Assembly: GCA_017458145.1 (NCBI GenBank)
Contig: JAFTGA010000016.1
Coordinates: 1-47,506 of the forward strand
From: Bacteroidales bacterium
GTDB taxonomy: Bacteria > Bacteroidota > Bacteroidia > Bacteroidales > UBA932
Direction of reading: 5' to 3'
DNA: 47,506 bases
A program made the translations under genes and the position numbers. The notes beneath the pieces are model-generated. The model made no database searches, was not told the origin of the DNA, and saw only the letters and a list, made by a program, of their open reading frames with translations. This document shows, one piece after another, positions 4,631 through 16,351 of the stretch (its first letter is position 1; each line of letters opens with the position of its first letter).

Positions 4631-7600
4631 CTAGAAGAACAGACGGACGCTGAAGAGCATCTGCCAGGTGTTGTAGGTGCTGCGGTATGTCTGGACGGTA
4701 GGAGCGGAGAAGGTGTATTTGCCACCGCTATATGCGAGGATATTCTCCGTGCTGACCTGCTTGCAGAGGCCCCAGTTGGAGTTCAGCAGGTTGGCGACAT
4801 TGTTGATGTCGACACCGATCTGCAGGGTCGTCGGCTTGTTCGCAATGTTGAAGATGAAGTCCTGGGCGATCTTGAGATTGAAGCGGTTCATCCAGGGAGC
4901 GACCTTGGCACCGCGCTCGGAATACTGGCCGCGGTGGGTGCTGAGGTAGCTGTCCTCCTCGATGAACTTCTTGAATTCAGCCTTGTTGGCATCGTCCGAG
5001 AATTCCATCTTGGCAAGATCGGCGTCCGTCGGGATGTAGATCAGGTTGTAGGAGCCGCCGACGCCGGTCACATCGCTCTTAAGCGTATAGGAATAGCGGG
5101 TGTATGAGTAGCCGCCGACATAGCAGTGGTTGTAGCCCTCGTAGAAGAGACCGAGCGTGGTGGCGAAGTGCCTGCCTTCCTGGATGCGGTAGCTCACGTT
5201 GGCAATCACGCGGTTCGGGGACACATAGGCTGAGTGTCCGAGTTCGGGCACGTTGGAACCATTGACGCTGTAGTTCCCGCCGGAGAACAGGGAAGAAACC
5301 TGATCACCGTAACCTTCCTGGATGGAGCGGGAGCCGCTCCGGGTATAGGCGGCCATCAGGTTCAGGCCGAACGGGAAGCTCTTGGAGAGACTGGCAGTAA
5401 TGGAATAGTATGTGCCGTGCAGGTTGGAGTTGGTCAGATAATACGGGGACACCGTGCTGCCCAGCGAGTTCTTGACGCCCTCGGACGTCCAGTGCGCACG
5501 GGATCCCGGCTCGCCGGGAAGGGTGACGGTGTCCTGCGTATAGCCAAGACGCTTGGCATAAACGCTGGAGAGGTCATAATTGAAGATTCCTTCCAGAGAA
5601 CCCTTGATGCCCCAGGGCAGCTCAGCATCGATGGCCAGGGATGACTTCCACGTAGTCGGCATATGCAGATTGGTATCGATGATGGTGGCGCCGGTCGGTG
5701 CAGCCAGGTTCTGTGCCTTGAACTGTCCTCCGTAGAGGTCGGTCAGGATGTCGTTGAGATTTGCGTGGAATGAGGGTGTGTTGGGATTCGTCCCGGTGTT
5801 GTCGATGAACTGGGCCTGCAGGTTGTTGCTGTTGCCGGCCACGGAGACGATCCAGACGAAGGGGATGCGGCCGGTGTAGAGGCCGCTGCCGCCGCGGATG
5901 ACGAGTTTGCGGTTCTTCAGGACATCCCAGTTGAAGCCAACGCGCGGGCTCAGGTTCAGGCGGGCTTTCGGCATGTTGGCCGTGCTCAGGCCCTTCATGG
6001 ACTGGCTGTTGTTTGCCAGCGTGCGGAACTCGGCATTGTCGTTGCCCTGGATGGCCGGATAGAACGGGAGCTCTGCACGCAGGCCGAGCGTCAGTTTGAA
6101 GTAGTCGCTGAAATCAATCTCATCCTGGATATAGGCAGAAATCTGGTTGTAGTTGAAAGAGGGGAACACTTGTGCGAGGTCATCGCGATTGGAGTGCGTG
6201 ACGGCGAAAGCCGCCGGCTTTCCTGCCGCTTTGAAATCCTCCCAGCTGTTGTAAACATAGAATCCGAGACCGCCCTGCATATAGCCGTTTTTGGTGTTGT
6301 CGTACTCATACTGGAGGCCGGCCACCAGGTTGTGCTTTCCGGCGGTGTAGGACAGTTCGTCTGTCACGACAAGGGTGTGCACGTCGCGGAGGTTGCCGTA
6401 GGTGAAGGGGTCCGGACCGAAGGAAGTTAGGACAGCTTTCGTGCCGTCTTCCAGCGGTTCGAGGATATCAACGGTCGGGAAGTTTGCTCCCACAAAACTT
6501 CTGGGCTCGTTCTGGTGGGACCAGGTGGCGCGGAACATATTGGCGCCGCGGCCTTCGAACAGACGGGAATTGAGTTCCGCAGCCACGGACGTGAAATTCA
6601 TATCCGTATTGTAGCGGCTGGACTCAAAATACTGGGCGTAGGTTGATGTGCGGCCGTATGTATTCCGGTTATACACGCTGCTTGCCATCGGACTGATGGA
6701 ATTGGACGGATTGGAGGCACTCGAGTTGTGGGTGTGGCTGAAGCGCAGGTTCAACTTGTTGTTGTCGTTGATGTTCCAGTCCAGGCGGGCCATGATCTTG
6801 TAGTCCGGGGTGCTGATGGAGTAGCCCTGGTAGCGTCCGGGATTATACCCGTATGTATTGTCGAGATATTCGAGGACTTCTTTCATGAAATTCTCGGTCG
6901 GACGCACGACATCCTTGTTCGGGACGAAGGCGGGATCCACGCGGCCGGAAGCCGTACTGACGACCTTGCTGGAGCCGGGAACCACGTCGGAGCTGTACTC
7001 GGCGTTGACGAAGAAAAACAGCTTGTTTTTCACGATCGGGCCACCGACGGTGAAACCGACGGTGTTGTCCAGAAAGTCGGTCCTGTTGAGGTTCTCTCCT
7101 TCGATCTTGTAGCCGCGGACGGCCTGGGAGGTGTAGTAGTCATACACGGAAGCGTGGAACTCGTTGGTGCCGCTCTTGGTCACGGCGTTGATGGCACCGC
7201 CGGTGAAGCCGGAGAGGCGCACGTCGAACGGCGTGATGTTGACGCTCATCTGTTCGATGGCGTCCAGGGAAATCGGGGCGCCCCCGGCAGGGAGGTTGGA
7301 GCCAATACCGAAGGCGTTGTTGAACGCGGCGCCGTCCACGGTGACATACGAGGAACGATAGTTGCCGCCTCCGACGGCCAGACCATTGGAGGTCGTGGAA
7401 GCCTGCGGCGTCAATTTCATCACATCGTTCAAACTGCGGCTGACCGTCGGAAGGTTGCGCATCGTGTTCTGGCTGACGGAAGTGCCTGCGCCGGAGCGGT
7501 GGATGTTCATGTTGGACAGGGAGCCGTCGGCAACAAACACTGCGGCTTCCAGGCTGATGGAGTCATCCTCAAGGACAGCATCCACCGTCAGGGTCTCTCC

Positions 7601-7897
7601 CAGGGGAGCATACAGGTTCTGGTTCTCGATGGTCCGGTAGCCCATCATCTGCACGGTGACGGTGTAGGGACCGCCCGGGGTGACGTTGTTGATGCGGAAG
7701 TTACCGTTCTTGTCGGTCACGGAGTAGTAGGTCGCAGCCGTCGGCTGATAGACAGCTATCACTGTGGCTCCGACAACAGCACCCTCCTTGTCGGTCACAT
7801 GGCCGCCAAAGGAAGACGTCGTTACCTGCGCGAATGCGGAGAAGCCCGCAAAAAGGAGGATGAGCGCAGGGACAAGGGTTTTAAGTGTTTGTCTCAT
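4631..7897 (-). CDS. TonB-dependent receptor, Oar-like, with carboxypeptidase-regulatory domain
   Basis: This 1088-aa outer-membrane protein starts with a signal peptide (MRQTLKTLVPALILLFAGFS, ending at AFA-Q). A carboxypeptidase-regulatory-like beta domain (about 26-113), a TonB plug (about 125-245, with YVTVDGAAFNNAFG and GGAINAVTKSGTNEFH) and a long barrel follow, ending in the aromatic VRLFF. It should import a large substrate using TonB energy; there is no SusD partner beside it. The start at 7897 was preferred over an upstream in-frame start because it gives the signal peptide and matches the start of the divergent paralog at 8732. Its -7 box lies inside an inverted repeat shared with that paralog, with the invertase between them. 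Substrate unknown. Confidence 0.92.
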   Translation of the reverse strand: MRQTLKTLVPALILLFAGFSAFAQVTTSSFGGHVTDKEGAVVGATVIAVYQPTAATYYSVTDKNGNFRINNVTPGGPYTVTVQMMGYRTIENQNLYAPLGETLTVDAVLEDDSISLEAAVFVADGSLSNMNIHRSGAGTSVSQNTMRNLPTVSRSLNDVMKLTPQASTTSNGLAVGGGNYRSSYVTVDGAAFNNAFGIGSNLPAGGAPISLDAIEQMSVNITPFDVRLSGFTGGAINAVTKSGTNEFHASVYDYYTSQAVRGYKIEGENLNRTDFLDNTVGFTVGGPIVKNKLFFFVNAEYSSDVVPGSSKVVSTASGRVDPAFVPNKDVVRPTENFMKEVLEYLDNTYGYNPGRYQGYSISTPDYKIMARLDWNINDNNKLNLRFSHTHNSSASNPSNSISPMASSVYNRNTYGRTSTYAQYFESSRYNTDMNFTSVAAELNSRLFEGRGANMFRATWSHQNEPRSFVGANFPTVDILEPLEDGTKAVLTSFGPDPFTYGNLRDVHTLVVTDELSYTAGKHNLVAGLQYEYDNTKNGYMQGGLGFYVYNSWEDFKAAGKPAAFAVTHSNRDDLAQVFPSFNYNQISAYIQDEIDFSDYFKLTLGLRAELPFYPAIQGNDNAEFRTLANNSQSMKGLSTANMPKARLNLSPRVGFNWDVLKNRKLVIRGGSGLYTGRIPFVWIVSVAGNSNNLQAQFIDNTGTNPNTPSFHANLNDILTDLYGGQFKAQNLAAPTGATIIDTNLHMPTTWKSSLAIDAELPWGIKGSLEGIFNYDLSSVYAKRLGYTQDTVTLPGEPGSRAHWTSEGVKNSLGSTVSPYYLTNSNLHGTYYSITASLSKSFPFGLNLMAAYTRSGSRSIQEGYGDQVSSLFSGGNYSVNGSNVPELGHSAYVSPNRVIANVSYRIQEGRHFATTLGLFYEGYNHCYVGGYSYTRYSYTLKSDVTGVGGSYNLIYIPTDADLAKMEFSDDANKAEFKKFIEEDSYLSTHRGQYSERGAKVAPWMNRFNLKIAQDFIFNIANKPTTLQIGVDINNVANLLNSNWGLCKQVSTENILAYSGGKYTFSAPTVQTYRSTYNTWQMLFSVRLFF

Positions 7898-7932
7898 TGA
7901 TTGATAATTATGATTTGAATTGCTCTTATCCA

Positions 7933-7954
7933 AAAACTGCGGCAAAAATACGAA
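7933..7954 (-). repeat. Left 22-bp inverted repeat flanking the invertase
   Basis: On the minus strand this reads TTC followed by GTATTTTTGCCGCAGTTTT. It is identical over 22 bases to 8667-8688 on the plus strand, so the two form a perfect inverted repeat 712 bp apart. It contains the -7 box of the minus-strand receptor. It may be an invertase crossover site or simply a conserved promoter core. Confidence 0.85.
7943..7950 (-). promoter_or_regulatory. -7 promoter box for the minus-strand TonB receptor
   Basis: Reads TATTTTTG on the minus strand, 45 bases before the ATG at 7897 and inside the left inverted repeat. The region 19-20 bases upstream (about 7970) has no TTTG, so the promoter looks incomplete in this orientation. 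Confidence 0.55.
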
Positions 7955-8005
7955 CCTATCTGTCCGGCGTTATAAGAGAAGAGGTAATCCTTAACTTTTT
8001 ATATT

Positions 8006-8608
8006 ATGGTATATGGCTATATTCGTGTCAGCAGCGACAAACAAACTGTTGAAAACCAGCGGTTTGAGATTATCAATTTCTGTAAATGTGAGTGCCTCGG
8101 CGTGGACGGGTGGATCGAGGAGACGGTCAGCGGAACCAAACGCTACAGCAAACGGGAGATCGGCCGCCTGCTGAAAAAGGTGCATTCCGGGGATTTGATT
8201 ATCTGTACGGAACTATCGCGGCTTGGCCGCAATCTGTTCATGATTCTGGAAATCCTGAATGTCTGCCTGGACAAAGGCTGCCGTGTATGGACGGTCAAGG
8301 ACAACTATCGTCTGGGCGAAGACCTCCAGAGCAAGGTGCTGGCCTTTGCATTCGGGCTTTCCGCCGAGATTGAGCGGGAACTGATCAGCCAGCGGACCCG
8401 GGAGGCCCTCAGGCGCAGGAAAGCGGAGGGGACGGTCCTGGGAAGGCCCAGGGGCCGGAAGACCGATGAGACCAAGTACAAACTATATCCGATGAAGGAT
8501 AAAATTGTGAAATTGCTTGCCGCCGGCGTGTCCCAGCAGCGCATCGCGAATATCTGCAAGGTGGACAGGGAGACAGTGCATCGCTACATCAGTACTTTTC
8601 TGTCCTGA
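8006..8608 (+). CDS. Mpi-family serine site-specific DNA invertase
   Basis: This 200-aa protein has the resolvase/invertase catalytic domain: YGYIRVSSDKQT with the conserved Arg7 and nucleophile Ser9, ELSRLGRN, and KVLAFAFGLSAEIERELISQRTREAL. A C-terminal helix-turn-helix follows (AAGVSQQRIANICKVDRETVHRYI). The sequence closely resembles Mpi, the Bacteroides fragilis master invertase that flips capsule promoters. It sits alone between two divergent TonB receptors and inside a perfect 22-bp inverted repeat. No terminator is seen between its stop and the plus-strand receptor, so read-through into that gene is plausible. Base composition is AT-richer than its neighbours. Family assignment is strong; the target sites are inferred. 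Confidence 0.93.
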   Translation: MVYGYIRVSSDKQTVENQRFEIINFCKCECLGVDGWIEETVSGTKRYSKREIGRLLKKVHSGDLIICTELSRLGRNLFMILEILNVCLDKGCRVWTVKDNYRLGEDLQSKVLAFAFGLSAEIERELISQRTREALRRRKAEGTVLGRPRGRKTDETKYKLYPMKDKIVKLLAAGVSQQRIANICKVDRETVHRYISTFLS

Positions 8609-8666
8609 GTGTCCGCTCCGTTTCTCCCTTAAAAAGGCAAAAAAAATTTCCGGTTGTCAGAAAACC

Positions 8667-8688
8667 TTCGTATTTTTGCCGCAGTTTT
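8667..8688 (+). repeat. Right 22-bp inverted repeat flanking the invertase
   Basis: Perfect inverted partner of 7933-7954. It contains the -7 box of the plus-strand receptor. Sequence identity stops after 22 bases on both sides and resumes in short blocks within the two 5' leaders. Confidence 0.85.
8671..8678 (+). promoter_or_regulatory. -7 promoter box for the plus-strand TonB receptor
   Basis: TATTTTTG matches TAnnTTTG. TTTC at 8647-8650, 20 bases upstream, is a near match to the -33 box TTTG. The ATG at 8732 gives a leader of roughly 50 bases. Confidence 0.55.
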
Positions 8689-8731
8689 AAAGGAAGAGTA
8701 AGTTATTCTAATCATAATTATTTATTAATCA

Positions 8732-11700
8732 ATGAAACAAACACTCAAAGGTTATGCCCTCGCATTCATCGGAATGTTTGTGGGTATTGTCGCCTTCGCG
8801 CAGGTGACGACCTCCTCTCTGAACGGTTCGATCTCCGATCAGAAGGGTGAACCGGTTGCGGGTGCGACGGTGGTCGCCATCCACACGCCTTCCGGTACTC
8901 AGTACTACGCTGTGGCGAATGCCGAAGGCCGTTTCTCGATCAACGGTATGCGTACCGGTGGTCCCTACAATGTCGAGGTCAGCTGCCTGGGCTACCAGAG
9001 CGTGACCTACACGGACGTAACCCTTCAGCTTGCTGAGCCTTACGCCATCAACGCCACCCTCCCGGATGACAGCCAGATGCTGAGCGAGGCCATCGTGATC
9101 TCCGAGGCTGCCTCCAAGTTCGCGGCCGAGAAGACCGGTGCTGCCACCAACATCAACAGCAGCCAGATCGCATCCCTTCCGACGGTCTCCCGCAGCATCA
9201 CCGACGTGACCCGCCTGTCCCCGTACGGCGGCAACGGCATGACCTTCGCCGGTGCTGACGGCCGTACCGCCAACTTCACCGTGGACGGTGCCAGCTTCAA
9301 CAACAACTTCGGCCTGTCCGACGCCCTGCCCGGCGGCGGCAACCCGATCTCCATCGACGCCATCGAGGAAATGCAGGTTGTGATCTCCCCGTACGACGTG
9401 CGCCAGACCAACTTCATCGGCGGCGGCGTCAACGCCATCACCAAGTCCGGTACCAACACCTTCAAGGGCACGGCCTACATCTATCATCGCAACGAGTACA
9501 TGCGCGGTGACACCGTGGACGGCGAGCAGATCGGCGGCGCGCGCGCCGTGGACCGCAACACCACCTATGGCTTCACCCTCGGCGGCCCGATCGTGAAGAA
9601 CAAGCTGTTCTTCTTCGTCAACGCCGAGTATTCCAAGATCCCGACCGTCGCCAACCGCTGGCAGGGTTCGACCAACGGCGTGGCCAATGCGGACAACTAC
9701 ATCTCCCGCACCACGCTCGCCGACCTCGAGGCAGTCAAGAACCACGTGGCCCAGAAGTATGGCTATGACACCGGTTCCTACACCGACTTCCCGGCCAACG
9801 AGAACAACCTCAAGGTTCTGGCCCGCATCGACTGGAACATCAGCGACAAGCACCACCTGGCCCTGCGTTACAACCACACGCTGAACAACCGCTGGAGCGC
9901 CCCCAACGCCACCTCGATGGACGGCGGCACCCGTATGCCCGGCGCCCGTATGTCCCAGTATTCAATGTCCTTCGCGAACTCGATGTATTCGATGCAGAAC
10001 ATCGTCCACTCCGCCTCCCTCGACCTCAACAGCCGCCTGAGCGACAACCTGTCCAACCAGTTCCTCGCCACTTATTCCAAGCTTGACGATATCCGTGGTT
10101 CCGGCTCTGCCGAGTTCCCGTTCATCGACATCCTCGACGGCGACCTGACGGAGGACGGTGTCGGCGCCGACAACTACATGGCCCTTGGCTATGAACTGTT
10201 CACTTGGAACAATGCCGTGCACAACACCGTGGCGAACATCAAGGACGACCTGACCTACTATGCCGGCGCCCACAAGATCACGGCCGGTCTCAATTTTGAG
10301 TACCAGATGGCCGACAACCAGTATATGCGCAACGGTACCGGCTACTACCGCTACAATTCCGTCAGCGACTTCATCGGCGGCGCCGCCCCGGAGATCGTCG
10401 ACCTTACCTACGGCTACGGCGGCGAGAAGAAGCCTGCCGCCCGCGTGCAGTTCTACAAGGCCGGTATCTACGGCCAGGATGAGTGGAACATCAACGACAA
10501 GTTCAAGCTCACGTTCGGCCTCCGCCTGGACGGCCTGTTCTTCAACAACTCCGACCTGATGACCAACAACGCCATCTATGCACTGAAGTACTATCCGAAG
10601 GGCTACAACTACACCGAGCAGCACATTGACACCGGCAAGTGGCCGACCTCCAAGGTGACCGTCTCCCCGCGTATCGGCTTCAACTGGGACGTCCTCGGCG
10701 ACAAGTCCCTCAAGGTCCGCGGCGGCACCGGCCTCTTCTCCGGCCGTCTGCCTCTCGTGTTCTTCACCAACATGCCGACCAACGGCGGTATGGTGCAGTA
10801 CCAGGCCCAGCTGAGCGGCTCCAAGAAGATTCCTGCCGGTTATACCGGACCCTACACGGAAGATGCCAAGGGCAACAAGTACATTGACATGGACCAGTTC
10901 GCCGGCGGTCTGGTGACCGAGGGCGGCAAGGCTACCATCGACGCCCTGTACAACAAGCTCCTCAAACTCGGCTATCCGAGCACCGTCAAGCCGGAGGACG
11001 GCACCGTGCCTTCCGCCGTAAACGGTGTGGATCCCCGCTTCAAGATGCCGCAGGTCTGGAAGACTTCCCTCGCGGTCGACTATTCCTTCCCGACCTCCTT
11101 CCCGTTCTCGATCGAGGTGGAAGGTATCTACAACAAGACCGTCAACGCCGTGTCCATCTCTGACTGGAGCATCCCCAACGTCGGCGGCTTCGCCCGCTTC
11201 AACGGCGTGGACAACCGTCCGATCTATCCTGCCGGCTACCGCACCGCCACCAAGGCTTTCGTCCTGGAGAACACCTCCAAGGGCTACGGCTGGTCCGGCA
11301 GCGTCACCCTCAACATGCGCCCGATCGAGGGCCTGAGTCTCATGGCCGCCTACACGCACACCGTCTCCAAGGAGATCACCGGTATGCCGGGCAGCGCCGC
11401 CGAGTCCGCCTTCACCTACGTGCCGACCGTCGAGGGCCCGAACTACATCGGCCTCCACAACTCCCAGTACGTGACTCCGGACCGTATCGTGGCTTCCGTG
11501 ACCCACGACGACAAGAGCGGCAACCACTTCAGCCTCATCTATGAGACCTGGCGCGGTGGTTACAACTACTCCTATATGATGACCAATGATATGAACGGCG
11601 ACGGCTACAACTACGACGCCCTTTATATCCCGACCGACCAGCAGGTGGCCTCCAACCAGTTCCGCTTCGTCAGCGCCGACGATGCCGCCCGCTTCATGGA

Positions 11701-12106: not shown

Positions 12107-13747
12107 ATGAAAGCGAAATATATTATCCTTTCCCTGATCGCTTCCCTGGCCGTCCTGGTCGGTTGCCAGAAGGAGAATCCTACGTACCTGGATCAGGTCA
12201 CGGTGTCCTCCTCCTATGTGAGCGTCCCCCTCGCCGGTGGTTCCAACACCATCACGGTCGATGCTTCTTCCAGCTGGTCGATCTCCGAGATCCCCCAGTG
12301 GCTGACCGTCAGCCCGGCTTCCGGCGCTGCCGGACAGACGACGGTGTCCTTCTCCGCTGAGGGCGTCCTTGACGGCCGCGAGGTTACTGTCAAGCTTGTT
12401 TGCGACGGTGCAACCCAGCTTATCAATGTGATCCAGGGCGTTGCTGTCGTGTCCCCGGCCACCTGCGCCGAGGTGATCGCCGGCCCGGACAAGAGCTACA
12501 AGGTCACGGGCATCTGCACCAAGATCGCCAATACCTCCTATGGCAACTGGTATCTGAACGACGGCACCGGCGAGATCTATATCTACGGTACGGTCAATGA
12601 GGGCGGCAGCTATGCCTGGTCCAGCTTCAACATCGAAGTGGGTGACGAGGTCACCGTCCAGGGCCCGAAGACGGTCTACAACGGTACCGTCGAACTCGTG
12701 GATGCCACCTTCATCAGCGTGAGCAAGTCCCTCATCAAGGTCGCCGAGATGGATCCGGAGGATGGTACCATCCCTACCGAGGGCGGTGAACTCACCGTCG
12801 TGCTCGAGAACAAGGGCAACGGCATCATCGTCGAAGTCCCCGAGGCTGCCAAGAGCTGGCTCTCCATCGCTTCCGTCAACGGCAATACCGTGACTTTCAA
12901 CGCTGCAGAGAACGTCGCCGGCCCGCGCAATGCGACCCTCGTGTTCCAGACCACCGACGGCAAGAAGATCTATTCCGCCGAGACCAGCATCACCCAGCTG
13001 GGCGCTACCGGCTCCAAGGATCTTCCGTTCACCGTCACGGAGGCGATCGAGTACATCCAGGGCCTCGGTGAAGAGACCGCCAAGGACTTCTACGTGAAGG
13101 GTATCGTGTCCAAGATTGTGAATAAATTCGATGCCGAATATGGCAATACCACGTTCTGGATCTCCGAGGACGGCGAATACAACGATGATCTGTCCCTGGA
13201 CTTCGAAGGCTATCGCGTCCTCTGGTTGGGTAATGAGAAGTGGGAGGAAGGTAATGCCCAGATTGAAGTCGGTGCCGAGGTGATCCTCTGCGGCAAGTTG
13301 ACGGTTTACAAGGGCACCGCCGAGACTTCCGGCAACAAGGCTTATATCTATCAGATCAACGGTGTCACCGGTGAGGATGACGGTATCGGCACGATGGAGA
13401 GCCCGTTCTCCGCAGTCGGTGCCATCGAAGCGGCCAAGGCTGCTCCGGCTTCCAACGTGTATGTGGCCGGGACGATCTCCAAGATTGTGGATGGCGGTGA
13501 GTTCGGAAGCTATGGCAATGCCACATTCTGGATTTCCGAGGATGGCGAGTACCATAGCGACCTCGACCTGGATTTCGAGGCCTATCGTGTCCTCTATCTT
13601 GGCAACAAGAAGTGGGCTGAGGGAGACACCCAGATCAAGGTCGGTGACGATGTGATCCTTTACGGTCAGTTGACCACCTATAAGGGTACGTCCGAGACGG
13701 TCCAGAACAAGGCTTACATTTATAGCCTCAACGGCAAGACCGAATAA
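12107..13747 (+). CDS. Surface lipoprotein with two BACON and three OB-fold-like domains
   Basis: This 546-aa protein begins with a lipoprotein signal (lipobox LVGC, Cys20). I read the domains as BACON (about 30-112), OB-like (115-208), BACON (210-300), OB-like (303-420) and OB-like (430-546). The last two OB-like units are close repeats: both contain TFWISEDGEY, YRVLxLGNxKW, VGxxVIL and NKAYIY, so they arose by internal duplication. BACON domains are typical of Bacteroidetes surface glycan- and mucin-associated proteins, and OB folds often bind nucleic acids or oligosaccharides. It follows the TonB receptor by 15 bp and is followed by a terminator, so the two form one transcription unit. It may be the substrate-capture partner of the receptor. 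Domain calls are by eye. Confidence 0.8.
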   Translation: MKAKYIILSLIASLAVLVGCQKENPTYLDQVTVSSSYVSVPLAGGSNTITVDASSSWSISEIPQWLTVSPASGAAGQTTVSFSAEGVLDGREVTVKLVCDGATQLINVIQGVAVVSPATCAEVIAGPDKSYKVTGICTKIANTSYGNWYLNDGTGEIYIYGTVNEGGSYAWSSFNIEVGDEVTVQGPKTVYNGTVELVDATFISVSKSLIKVAEMDPEDGTIPTEGGELTVVLENKGNGIIVEVPEAAKSWLSIASVNGNTVTFNAAENVAGPRNATLVFQTTDGKKIYSAETSITQLGATGSKDLPFTVTEAIEYIQGLGEETAKDFYVKGIVSKIVNKFDAEYGNTTFWISEDGEYNDDLSLDFEGYRVLWLGNEKWEEGNAQIEVGAEVILCGKLTVYKGTAETSGNKAYIYQINGVTGEDDGIGTMESPFSAVGAIEAAKAAPASNVYVAGTISKIVDGGEFGSYGNATFWISEDGEYHSDLDLDFEAYRVLYLGNKKWAEGDTQIKVGDDVILYGQLTTYKGTSETVQNKAYIYSLNGKTE

Positions 13748-13834: not shown

Positions 13835-15262
13835 ATGAGACTTTCAAGGAACATTTTCTTAGTGGCTATGCTGGGTGCGGTGGCGCTCGGCTGCAGCAAG
13901 GTGAATCCGGCCAGCCTGAACCTGCTGACCATCAACCTCTCGTTCGACAGTGCCGGCGGTTCGGAGCAGATTTCCGTCCAGACCAACCAGAACTGGTCCG
14001 TATCCGCCGACCAGACCTGGGTCGAGATATCCCCTTCTGCCGGTTCCGGATCGGACAGCTACCAGCTCGTGACGGTCTCGGTGGGGGAGAATGAGTCGGA
14101 GCAGGCCCGCCAGGCCACGATTACGGTGCGTGCGGGCGAACTGTCCAAGCTCCTGCAGCTCACCCAGGCGGGCGCGCCGAAGTTCACGATCCGTGATTTC
14201 CGTGCCAAGAAGGCCGACAAGACCACCTGGTATAAGCTGACGGGCGAGATTGCGTCCATTGCGAACGAAGAATACGGCAACTTCTACATCTTCGATGAGA
14301 CGGATTATGTCTATGTCTACGGTCTCACGAAGGATCAGCAGAGCTCCAACGACCAGTCCTTTTCCAAACTGGACCTCAAGCCCGGCGATACCGTCACGAT
14401 GATGACCCTGCGCAGTGAGCACAACGGTCTGGTCGAAGCCGGCGGCACGATCCCGGCCTATTTCGTGTCCAGGACCGCAGGGGAGTACAAGCTCGGCACC
14501 AAGGTCTCTTCGACCAAGGCCGGCTGGCTGGAACTCCCGGCCACTTCCGCCTCCGACGGCCAGGACCTGCTGATCCACCGTTTCCCGGACGGGAGCCGCA
14601 ACTACGCCGCCTACTACGACTACAAGCATTTCGTTTCCACCTGGGTGGCTTATCCGTTGTGTGGGGGAAATATCGGTTCCTCGGGCGGCCGCACGGACGC
14701 CTTTGCGCTGGACCCGCTCCTGCCGCGCGACAAGCAGGCCTATCTGACGGGCGCCTTCCGCGAGGGCAACGCCGGCAAGTTCGACCGGGGACACCAGATC
14801 CCTTCGGCCGACCGCCTGGAGACCCGCGTGAACCTGGAGACCTTCTTCAGCACCAACATGACCCCGCAGCTCAATGCGCTCAACGCCAACGGCTGGGAAG
14901 TGCTGGAGAGCAAGGTGCGCGGCTGGGCGAAGAAATCCGATACGCTCTACGTGGTGACGGGCTGCTCCGTGGCGGGCAGCGACCAATACGCCCTGGACAG
15001 CGAGGGCAAGCAGATTACCGTGCCGACGGGCTATTACAAGGCCCTGCTGCGCCTGGACAAGGACAAGAATTACTCGGCCCTCGGTATCTGGATGGACCAC
15101 GCGGCCAACAGCGCCACCAGCATCCGCAAGGACATGGTGATGAGCATTGACGAGCTTGAGAAGAAGGTGGGCGTGGACTTCTTCGTGAACCTGCCCGAGG
15201 CGGTCCAGAAGACCGTGGAGGCGCAGAATCCGGCCGACGAGGCCTGGTGGTGGAACAATTAA
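13835..15262 (+). CDS. DNA/RNA non-specific endonuclease lipoprotein (NUC1), with BACON and OB-like domains
   Basis: This 475-aa protein has a lipoprotein signal (lipobox ALGC, Cys20), a BACON domain (about 30-112), an OB-like segment (about 115-215, with YGNFYIFDETDYVYVYG) and a C-terminal NUC1 domain (about 225-450). The catalytic core reads FDRGHQIPSADR, with DRGH at 317-320 (His320 the general base). The downstream TNMTPQ supplies the metal-binding Asn341. Such enzymes cut DNA and RNA without sequence preference, here at the cell surface or periplasm. It shares BACON and OB-like modules with the preceding lipoprotein and starts a run with the EEP and M3 genes (gaps of 15 bp and -4 bp). 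This is the strongest single clue for nucleic-acid breakdown at this locus. Confidence 0.9.
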   Translation: MRLSRNIFLVAMLGAVALGCSKVNPASLNLLTINLSFDSAGGSEQISVQTNQNWSVSADQTWVEISPSAGSGSDSYQLVTVSVGENESEQARQATITVRAGELSKLLQLTQAGAPKFTIRDFRAKKADKTTWYKLTGEIASIANEEYGNFYIFDETDYVYVYGLTKDQQSSNDQSFSKLDLKPGDTVTMMTLRSEHNGLVEAGGTIPAYFVSRTAGEYKLGTKVSSTKAGWLELPATSASDGQDLLIHRFPDGSRNYAAYYDYKHFVSTWVAYPLCGGNIGSSGGRTDAFALDPLLPRDKQAYLTGAFREGNAGKFDRGHQIPSADRLETRVNLETFFSTNMTPQLNALNANGWEVLESKVRGWAKKSDTLYVVTGCSVAGSDQYALDSEGKQITVPTGYYKALLRLDKDKNYSALGIWMDHAANSATSIRKDMVMSIDELEKKVGVDFFVNLPEAVQKTVEAQNPADEAWWWNN

Positions 15263-15277
15263 CGACCGTCAGTATAT

Positions 15278-16351
15278 ATGAAAAGAAGTTTTTTCCTGCT
15301 CGCGGGCCTGCTTGCCCTGCTCGCGGCCTGTACCCCCAAAATCCCCGACGACGCCTATGTGATCGGCTTCTACAATGTCGAGAACCTTTTCGATACGACC
15401 CACGACCGGGGCAAGAACGACCAGGCCTTCACGCCGGACGGCGAGAACCGCTGGACCCCGGACAAATACGAGAAGAAACTGTCCAACATCGCTTCCGTGA
15501 TCCGGGCGATGTCGCAGACCAACGGCCGCTGGCACACCATTCTCGGCCTGGCCGAGGTGGAGAACGAGCACGTGCTGCAGGATCTGGTCGCCTGCGATGA
15601 GATCGCCGAGGCCGGCTATAAGTTCGTCCATTTCGAGAGCCCGGACGTGCGCGGAATCGACTGCGCGCTGCTCTACCGGCCCGGCCAGTTCGAGGTGCAA
15701 GAGAGCCGTACGATCGGCTATGATTTCAATACCCATAGCGGGATCGTCTTCGAGAAGACGCCCCAGGAGCAGGCGGAGTTCCTGACCCGCGACGTGCTCT
15801 TCGTGCGCGGCTGGCTGGGCGGGGAGATGTTCGGCATCTACGTCGCGCATTATCCTTCCCGCATCGGCGGCAAGGGGATGGACCTGCGCAGCCGTGCCTC
15901 GGAGATCATCTACGATGATATCCGCGAGCAGGAGCAGCGCCATCCCGGCATCAAGATCGTGGTGATGGGCGATATGAACGACAACCCGGAAGACGAGAGC
16001 CTGCTCACCTGGCTGCACAGCCGCGAGACCATCGCGCAGATGCAGGGGGGCGACCTCTTCTCCCCGTTCCTGCGGATGCACAAGGACGGCTTCGGGTCAG
16101 AGGAGTACCACGGCGAGTGGAACATCTTCGACTGCATCTTCGTCAACGGCGCCCTGGCGAATCCTTCCGACGGGAGCCTGCGGATCCAAAAGAGCGACGA
16201 CGTCCACTACGGCTACATCTTCAACCCGCCCTTCCTCGTCCAGCAGGATGGACCGTATGCCGGTACGCCCTTCCGGACCTTCTCCGGCGGGCAGTTCATC
16301 GAAGGGTATTCCGACCACTATCCGACTTATATCATCGTCAGCAAACAATGA
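15278..16351 (+). CDS. Endonuclease/exonuclease/phosphatase family lipoprotein
   Basis: This 357-aa protein carries a lipoprotein signal (LLAAC, Cys18) and an EEP fold. Motifs are GFYNVENLFDT, LAEVENEHVLQDL (metal-binding Glu), VVMGDMNDNPEDESL (catalytic Asp and Asn) and a terminal EGYSDHYPTYI (catalytic Asp-His). EEP enzymes cut phosphodiester or phosphate bonds in DNA, RNA, nucleotides or phospholipids, so the exact substrate is open. Next to a NUC1 nuclease it could trim oligonucleotides or remove phosphates. It starts 15 bp after the NUC1 gene and its stop overlaps the next ATG (ATGA), indicating one operon. Confidence 0.88.
   Translation: MKRSFFLLAGLLALLAACTPKIPDDAYVIGFYNVENLFDTTHDRGKNDQAFTPDGENRWTPDKYEKKLSNIASVIRAMSQTNGRWHTILGLAEVENEHVLQDLVACDEIAEAGYKFVHFESPDVRGIDCALLYRPGQFEVQESRTIGYDFNTHSGIVFEKTPQEQAEFLTRDVLFVRGWLGGEMFGIYVAHYPSRIGGKGMDLRSRASEIIYDDIREQEQRHPGIKIVVMGDMNDNPEDESLLTWLHSRETIAQMQGGDLFSPFLRMHKDGFGSEEYHGEWNIFDCIFVNGALANPSDGSLRIQKSDDVHYGYIFNPPFLVQQDGPYAGTPFRTFSGGQFIEGYSDHYPTYIIVSKQ

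Follow-up and report, generated by a model that had tools for sequence, protein, structure and literature searches.

How can one short segment of DNA decide which of two outer-membrane receptors a bacterium makes? The question is raised by a stretch of 47,506 nucleotides from a Bacteroidales bacterium (GenBank assembly GCA_017458145.1, contig JAFTGA010000016.1; the whole stretch is hereafter called the window), in which two receptor genes diverge from a small gene for a serine invertase. A sequence-only reading of the window had assigned this enzyme to the Mpi family, had placed it inside a perfect 22-bp inverted repeat carrying the -7 promoter box of either receptor, and had proposed that inversion exchanges the upstream promoter halves. 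Having followed up this proposal in the assembly and in related genomes, we consider it very likely, judging from sequence comparison, that the locus is a two-way receptor switch worked by a segment that encloses its own invertase.

The anatomy of the locus bears out the proposed arrangement (Table 1). An intact invertase gene lies between the two divergent receptor genes. Its product, P0001, scores 308.4 bits, against a cut-off of 272, with the NCBIfam model NF009949 ('master DNA invertase Mpi family serine-type recombinase') over residues 1-197 of 200, which upholds the family assignment. The catalytic domain matches PF00239 (Resolvase, 1.3e-33) and is joined to a C-terminal helix-turn-helix region whose matches all lie under their cut-offs; the best matches among solved structures are the DNA invertases 4m6f and 3uj3, aligned over residues 1-192. 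Hallmarks of serine invertases are an N-terminal serine and an RLGR motif. The two arms are the same over 22 of 22 nt in opposite orientation, 712 nt apart, and each contains TATTTTTG. As had been claimed, a near -33 box (TTTC) stands 20 nt before the -7 box on the plus side, and nothing resembling a -33 box was seen at the matching spacing on the minus side. The locus has the make-up of an inverton, in which inverted repeats enclose the promoter elements of a downstream gene.

Outward of the arms the two sides are still alike, in successive stretches of 35 nt (83%), 35 nt (77%) and 99 nt (71%) that run through leader and signal-peptide region; inward there is no obvious similarity, and the homology ends sharply at the inner edge. 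No third site for the arm 22-mer was found at up to 3 mismatches in the assembly (2,182,661 bases, 64 contigs, 80.5% complete), a search that would not reveal distant sites of greater degeneracy or any in the fifth of the genome that the assembly lacks; a control, the 22-mer read backwards, had no match in the same assembly. At this stringency the arms are a local pair only, not the many dispersed targets of a global master invertase.

We propose the following mechanism. The invertase would recombine two flanking crossover sites (core TT, outer half-site CGTATTTTTGC) and thereby flip the 712-bp segment that holds its own gene. Each receptor would keep its own -7 box, leader and start, all of them outside the crossover, and the upstream promoter half at the 3' end of the invertase gene (TTTC plus spacer) would serve whichever receptor it then faces. 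As the segment lies in the window, the right receptor (OMR) and the nuclease genes behind it would be ON and the left receptor (OML) OFF or weak. The earlier suggestion, in which the -33 half changes place and both -7 boxes remain, agrees with the window locus and, read by eye, with three relatives (L212, L214 and L244).

Table 1. Features of the switch locus and of the genes beside it (positions in the window)
Feature	Position	Strand	Remarks
Left receptor OML, 1088 aa	4631..7897	-	OMP_b-brl_4 + CarboxypepD_reg; predicted OFF in the orientation shown
Left arm of the 22-bp inverted repeat	7933..7954	-	Identical to right arm; presumed core TT at 7954-7953 on the minus strand
-7 box TATTTTTG of left receptor	7943..7950	-	Inside left arm; no -33-like box upstream in this orientation
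Predicted invertible segment	7955..8666		712 nt between the arms; from anatomy and comparison with relatives
Mpi-family serine invertase P0001, 200 aa	8006..8608	+	Resolvase match; DNA-invertase structures; NF009949 above cut-off
-33-like box TTTC	8647..8650	+	Inside segment, 20 nt before the plus-strand -7 box
Right arm of the 22-bp inverted repeat	8667..8688	+	Identical to left arm; presumed core TT at 8667-8668
-7 box TATTTTTG of right receptor	8671..8678	+	Inside right arm
Right receptor OMR, 1119 aa	8732..12091	+	OMP_b-brl_4 + CarboxypepD_reg; predicted ON
BACON-domain lipoprotein-like protein	12107..13747	+	Same direction as OMR; homologue also behind OMR in relatives
BACON + DNA/RNA non-specific endonuclease	13835..15262	+	Domain matches
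Endonuclease/exonuclease/phosphatase-family protein	15278..16351	+	Exo_endo_phos_3; ExeM/NucH match far under cut-off

A mechanism of this kind can be followed through related genomes. Homologues of the invertase occur at E <= 1e-40 in 124 of the 400 genomes of the genus sample. We analysed 168 loci, with an invertase match at E <= 1e-15 in 167 and only a fragment in the remaining one (L081). Open reading frames of at least 300 aa point away on each side within ~1.6 kb at 68 of the 168 loci. At 46 of them both flanking proteins are homologous to each other and diverge from the invertase; both match one of eight Pfam-tested receptors in all 46. This filter drops loci cut by contig ends and loci with other neighbours, and it missed the locus L087/L244, which was handled separately, because extra genes push one receptor away. 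The comparison suggests that the enclosed two-way switch is found again and again within one genus, with many different receptor pairs. A search of named genomes with P0001 as query yielded 48 loci in other contexts, L081 being one of them, and none belongs to the 46; in a DNA search over 400 genomes, 273 were scored.

If the segment carries a promoter part at one end only, promoters should be one-sided with respect to the invertase. We scored the consensus TTTG-N17-21-TAnnTTTG, a motif known from earlier work, in the 220 nt before each receptor (maximum score 10). Scores of at least 9 were reached on the invertase 3' side at 34 of 46 loci and on the 5' side at 2 of 46; the 3' side scored higher at 37 loci and lower at 3, with 6 ties (sign test, 1.9e-8). 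Among the 34 matches on the 3' side, 25 have a spacer of exactly 20 nt. At 33 of 46 loci the receptor also stands farther away on the 3' side than on the 5' side (median gaps 321 and 139 nt). Base composition as the sole cause of the asymmetry was considered and rejected, since shuffled sequences reproduce part of it but not its size: on average 8.9 of 46 Markov-shuffled 3' sides reached 9 (maximum 17, 100 runs) and 5.5 of 46 shuffled 5' sides did so, and the difference between wins and losses from shuffles alone was 7.2 (maximum 23), against 34 observed. The one-sided motifs therefore argue that one end of the segment carries the promoter, or in the window its upstream half, and that orientation picks the receptor that is read. 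In SusC-like relatives the motif usually lies wholly inside the segment; a split promoter, with the crossover between -33 and -7, thus appears special to the OMP_b-brl_4 receptor class of the window.

Comparison of the locus in related genomes, which had been put forward as a check, revealed the same kind of switch in both orientations. We fetched 30 loci with a homologue of OMR at 71-88% identity; a related invertase stands beside it in three (genome G242, locus L212; G166, L214; G019, L244), and in the other 27 there is none in the stretch covered, which is short for several. Between G166 and G019 both receptors are orthologous (75.9% and 72.6%) and the invertases 68.8% identical, yet the invertase points in opposite directions, + in one and - in the other. 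In both genomes TTTTG-N18-TATCTT(C/T)G is found on the side to which the invertase points, so that the -33 box follows the invertase. A threshold of 55% for both receptors leaves just three pairs within the 46 loci, two with opposite orientation and one with the same; in total, three of four orthologous pairs are opposite. Opposite orientations fit inversion, and together with the mostly one-sided promoter motifs the G166/G019 pair supports the predicted choice between two receptors. Furthermore, 19 of 120 invertase genes (118 fetched and 2 from the genome itself) lie within 500 nt of a contig end, where 4.6 were expected and the maximum was 14 in 20,000 simulations on the same contigs. The fetched loci were a choice from the matches, in which several beginning at a contig edge were passed over, a bias against this excess. 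Unresolved inversions could cause it.

Where would the strands be exchanged? Among relatives that have this receptor class, the two sides begin to be alike at GGTCGTATNTT, and the inner half can mirror it; the site of L212 reads CAAATATACG-GT-CGTATATTCG. At several SusC-like loci the sites resemble AAACG-NN-CGTTT. The motif CG-NN-CG[T/A] with the same middle bases on both sides, at most 150 nt from the start codons, was found at 21 of 46 loci, whereas 50 Markov controls gave 0.1 on average and never more than 1. We preferred this count because a free dyad search for the core was not clean (mean score 16.0 vs 10.0 in shuffles, often with an AT-rich palindrome near the start codon chosen). The motif would be a dyad for a serine recombinase around a 2-nt core, which in the window would be TT, a probable crossover point at the inner edge of the arms. 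This crossover site, and not the entire 22-bp arm, is the likely unit of recombination. Leader identity over the 46 loci averages 67.0 within and 57.2 between loci. Signs of concerted evolution are mixed: identity within the locus is clearly above that of orthologues in L263, L271, L244 and L110, slightly higher in L156, not higher in L250 and L270, and between the two orthologue values in L276.

Several observations weigh against a two-way switch. The -33 box of the window, TTTC, is imperfect. Since similarity runs outward but not inward of the arms, part of the repeat reflects paralogous leaders, which partly account for it. The window is absent from the 21 loci with CG-NN-CG, and its inner half-sites are degenerate. 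Six loci are tied in promoter score and the 5' side is the higher one in L003 (7 on the 3' side vs 8), L090 (7 vs 9) and L153 (6 vs 8); at L153 the scoring window was misplaced, because the automatic start lies 164 nt upstream of the homologous receptor start, and reading by eye from that start (L212) finds a -33-like box on the 3' side. The 3' sides are also richer in A+T (0.673 vs 0.624), which alone yields some asymmetry. One past inversion per pair would explain the opposite orientations, one pair in four has the same orientation, and ordinary repeats can also produce contig ends. That the segment still flips in this organism, where exactly the core lies and that only one receptor is expressed at a time are what we infer.

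With this in mind, three other explanations were weighed. The repeat might be nothing but a conserved receptor promoter and leader present twice, the invertase being inactive or acting elsewhere. Leaders and signal peptides are indeed alike beyond the arms, a similar promoter is found before some OMR orthologues whose covered stretch contains no invertase, and the form AAATTTCC-N19-TATCTTCG precedes two orthologous receptors without one (L223 and L239). Such paralogy, however, leaves unexplained why the similarity stops at the inner edge, why allowing up to 3 mismatches brings up no further site for the arm in the assembly, why promoters are one-sided across 46 loci and why orthologous pairs are oppositely oriented, and we regard it as highly improbable. 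An intact invertase gene with a family match along nearly its whole product, and arms that are still identical, likewise make it quite unlikely that the segment inverted once and is now effectively fixed, even though a single orientation was assembled at the window locus and in the relative L081 most of the invertase and left receptor is gone and the right receptor persists with a similar promoter.

Alternatively, the segment may exert ON/OFF control over the right operon only, the left receptor being read from its own promoter independently of the segment. We give this a small chance: whichever way the segment lies, the left receptor retains a complete -7 box, and it may be able to do without a -33 box, but with identical arms inversion would give either receptor the same promoter, and the -33 box stands at the other receptor in a relative that has the opposite orientation. 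The two-way switch also admits a farther-reaching version, which we put forward tentatively and hold to be possible, if on balance doubtful. Here the half-site would itself be the -7 box (CGTATATTTGC-like in relatives, CGTATTTTTGC in the window) and the crossover would split the promoter of each receptor between -33 and -7; bound invertase would exclude RNA polymerase and would be at once switch, receptor repressor and, via the inner half-site, regulator of its own gene, in a widespread and so far unrecognised surface choice in the genus.

The two receptors, 34.6% identical to each other, had been labelled TonB receptors. That they are divergent outer-membrane receptors stands; the TonB type needs refinement, as they match OMP_b-brl_4 and CarboxypepD_reg and have no Plug match. 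Plug domains are present in receptors at the five relative loci examined (L003, L090, L108, L110 and L160). The start of OML was taken as the ATG at 7897, the listed frame to 7945 beginning at an upstream TTG. No SusD match, and hence no SusC/SusD pair, was found among the scanned neighbours in the window. By annotation, OMR would head a putative extracellular-nuclease operon. At two of three loci viewed (L194 and L204), OML homologues are followed by nuclease genes like those behind OMR, so both receptors may serve the use of nucleic acids. No invertase was found upstream of OML orthologues in the flanks of L194, L201 and L204, the sole loci checked. At L219 (G016), homologues of OML and OMR stand in tandem, ~145 nt apart and without an invertase, possibly an ancestral arrangement.

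Some further loci deserve mention. The same genome contains a second Mpi-type invertase between divergent Plug-domain receptors with inverted leaders (G000:C16; L003, 2226-9926), where motif scoring over 220 nt found no clear one-sided promoter; used as query against 199 genomes of the family, this invertase was matched at E <= 1e-60 in 8 genomes including its own, in 3 of 25 genera. At L081 (4119-4612; uncultured Bacteroidales, Reindeer_2_mag_58), OMR and a similar promoter are kept and most of OML and the invertase is missing; it is a decayed, seemingly locked orthologous switch, or a misassembly. At L087 of G019 (6641-7880), a nucleotidyltransferase/DUF6577 gene and, by eye, a further small reading frame lie between the receptors as cargo in the predicted switch. 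Among the matches listed, inverted repeats of ~300 bp lie near the invertase relatives of L035, L036, L082, L145, L150 and L162, all but L162 having a further repeat pair of 25-37 bp. In L035, L036 and L082 the repeats stand beside other genes, with a methylase/specificity-domain identity by Pfam for L082 alone; there they sit in a stand-alone TaqI_C specificity-domain gene and the facing Eco57I-type methylase, which suggests swapping of DNA-recognition domains.

If our interpretation is correct, a self-contained cassette picks between two receptors, one of which leads a putative DNA-degrading operon, and the orientation of the cassette should predict which receptor a cell makes. Receptors of this kind can admit nutrients and phages, and the cassette thus lends itself to a simple orientation assay.

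Surface phase variation in gut Bacteroidales is best known as ON/OFF promoters, several under one master invertase. For Mpi of Bacteroides fragilis, the work is reportedly that of Coyne in 2003. According to the excerpts of the papers used here and below, Mpi is a master enzyme with at least 13 scattered target regions (PMC4747536, PMC5903667). It shares with the window enzyme the recombinase family (NCBIfam) and invertible promoters for surface molecules; in contrast to its scattered targets, the window enzyme has one unique arm pair around its own gene and serves two receptors. The Hin segment of Salmonella drives one operon directly and silences another through a repressor. Hin, too, is encoded within its invertible segment (PMC5903667). 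Both systems thus have a serine invertase inside the segment that it flips and an outward promoter at one end, but instead of one direct operon and a repressor, the window has a receptor gene at either end and a crossover between -33 and -7. Tsr0667 of B. fragilis is a tyrosine-type enzyme. Its SusC/SusD shufflon undergoes multiple inversions at three receptor gene clusters (PMC4747536), so it also alternates outer-membrane receptors by inversion, in shufflon fashion rather than as the two-gene choice of the window. TonB-dependent receptor and SusD genes near invertons are on record in several papers jointly (PMC4747536, PMC11892184, PMC10939037, PMC5903667, PMC11868660). As regards the choice between two genes, the window resembles sapA of Campylobacter fetus. 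There, a single promoter is turned toward either of two surface-protein genes that lie on opposite sides of it; the inversion works by homologous recombination, and the segment is not known to encode a dedicated invertase, whereas that of the window does. Within the excerpts that our literature search covered, we met with no Mpi-type invertase described as lying inside its own segment and selecting one of two divergent receptors, which is no proof of novelty. An invertible promoter that encloses its invertase is already known; the two-way form, recurrent in a genus, would be the new part.

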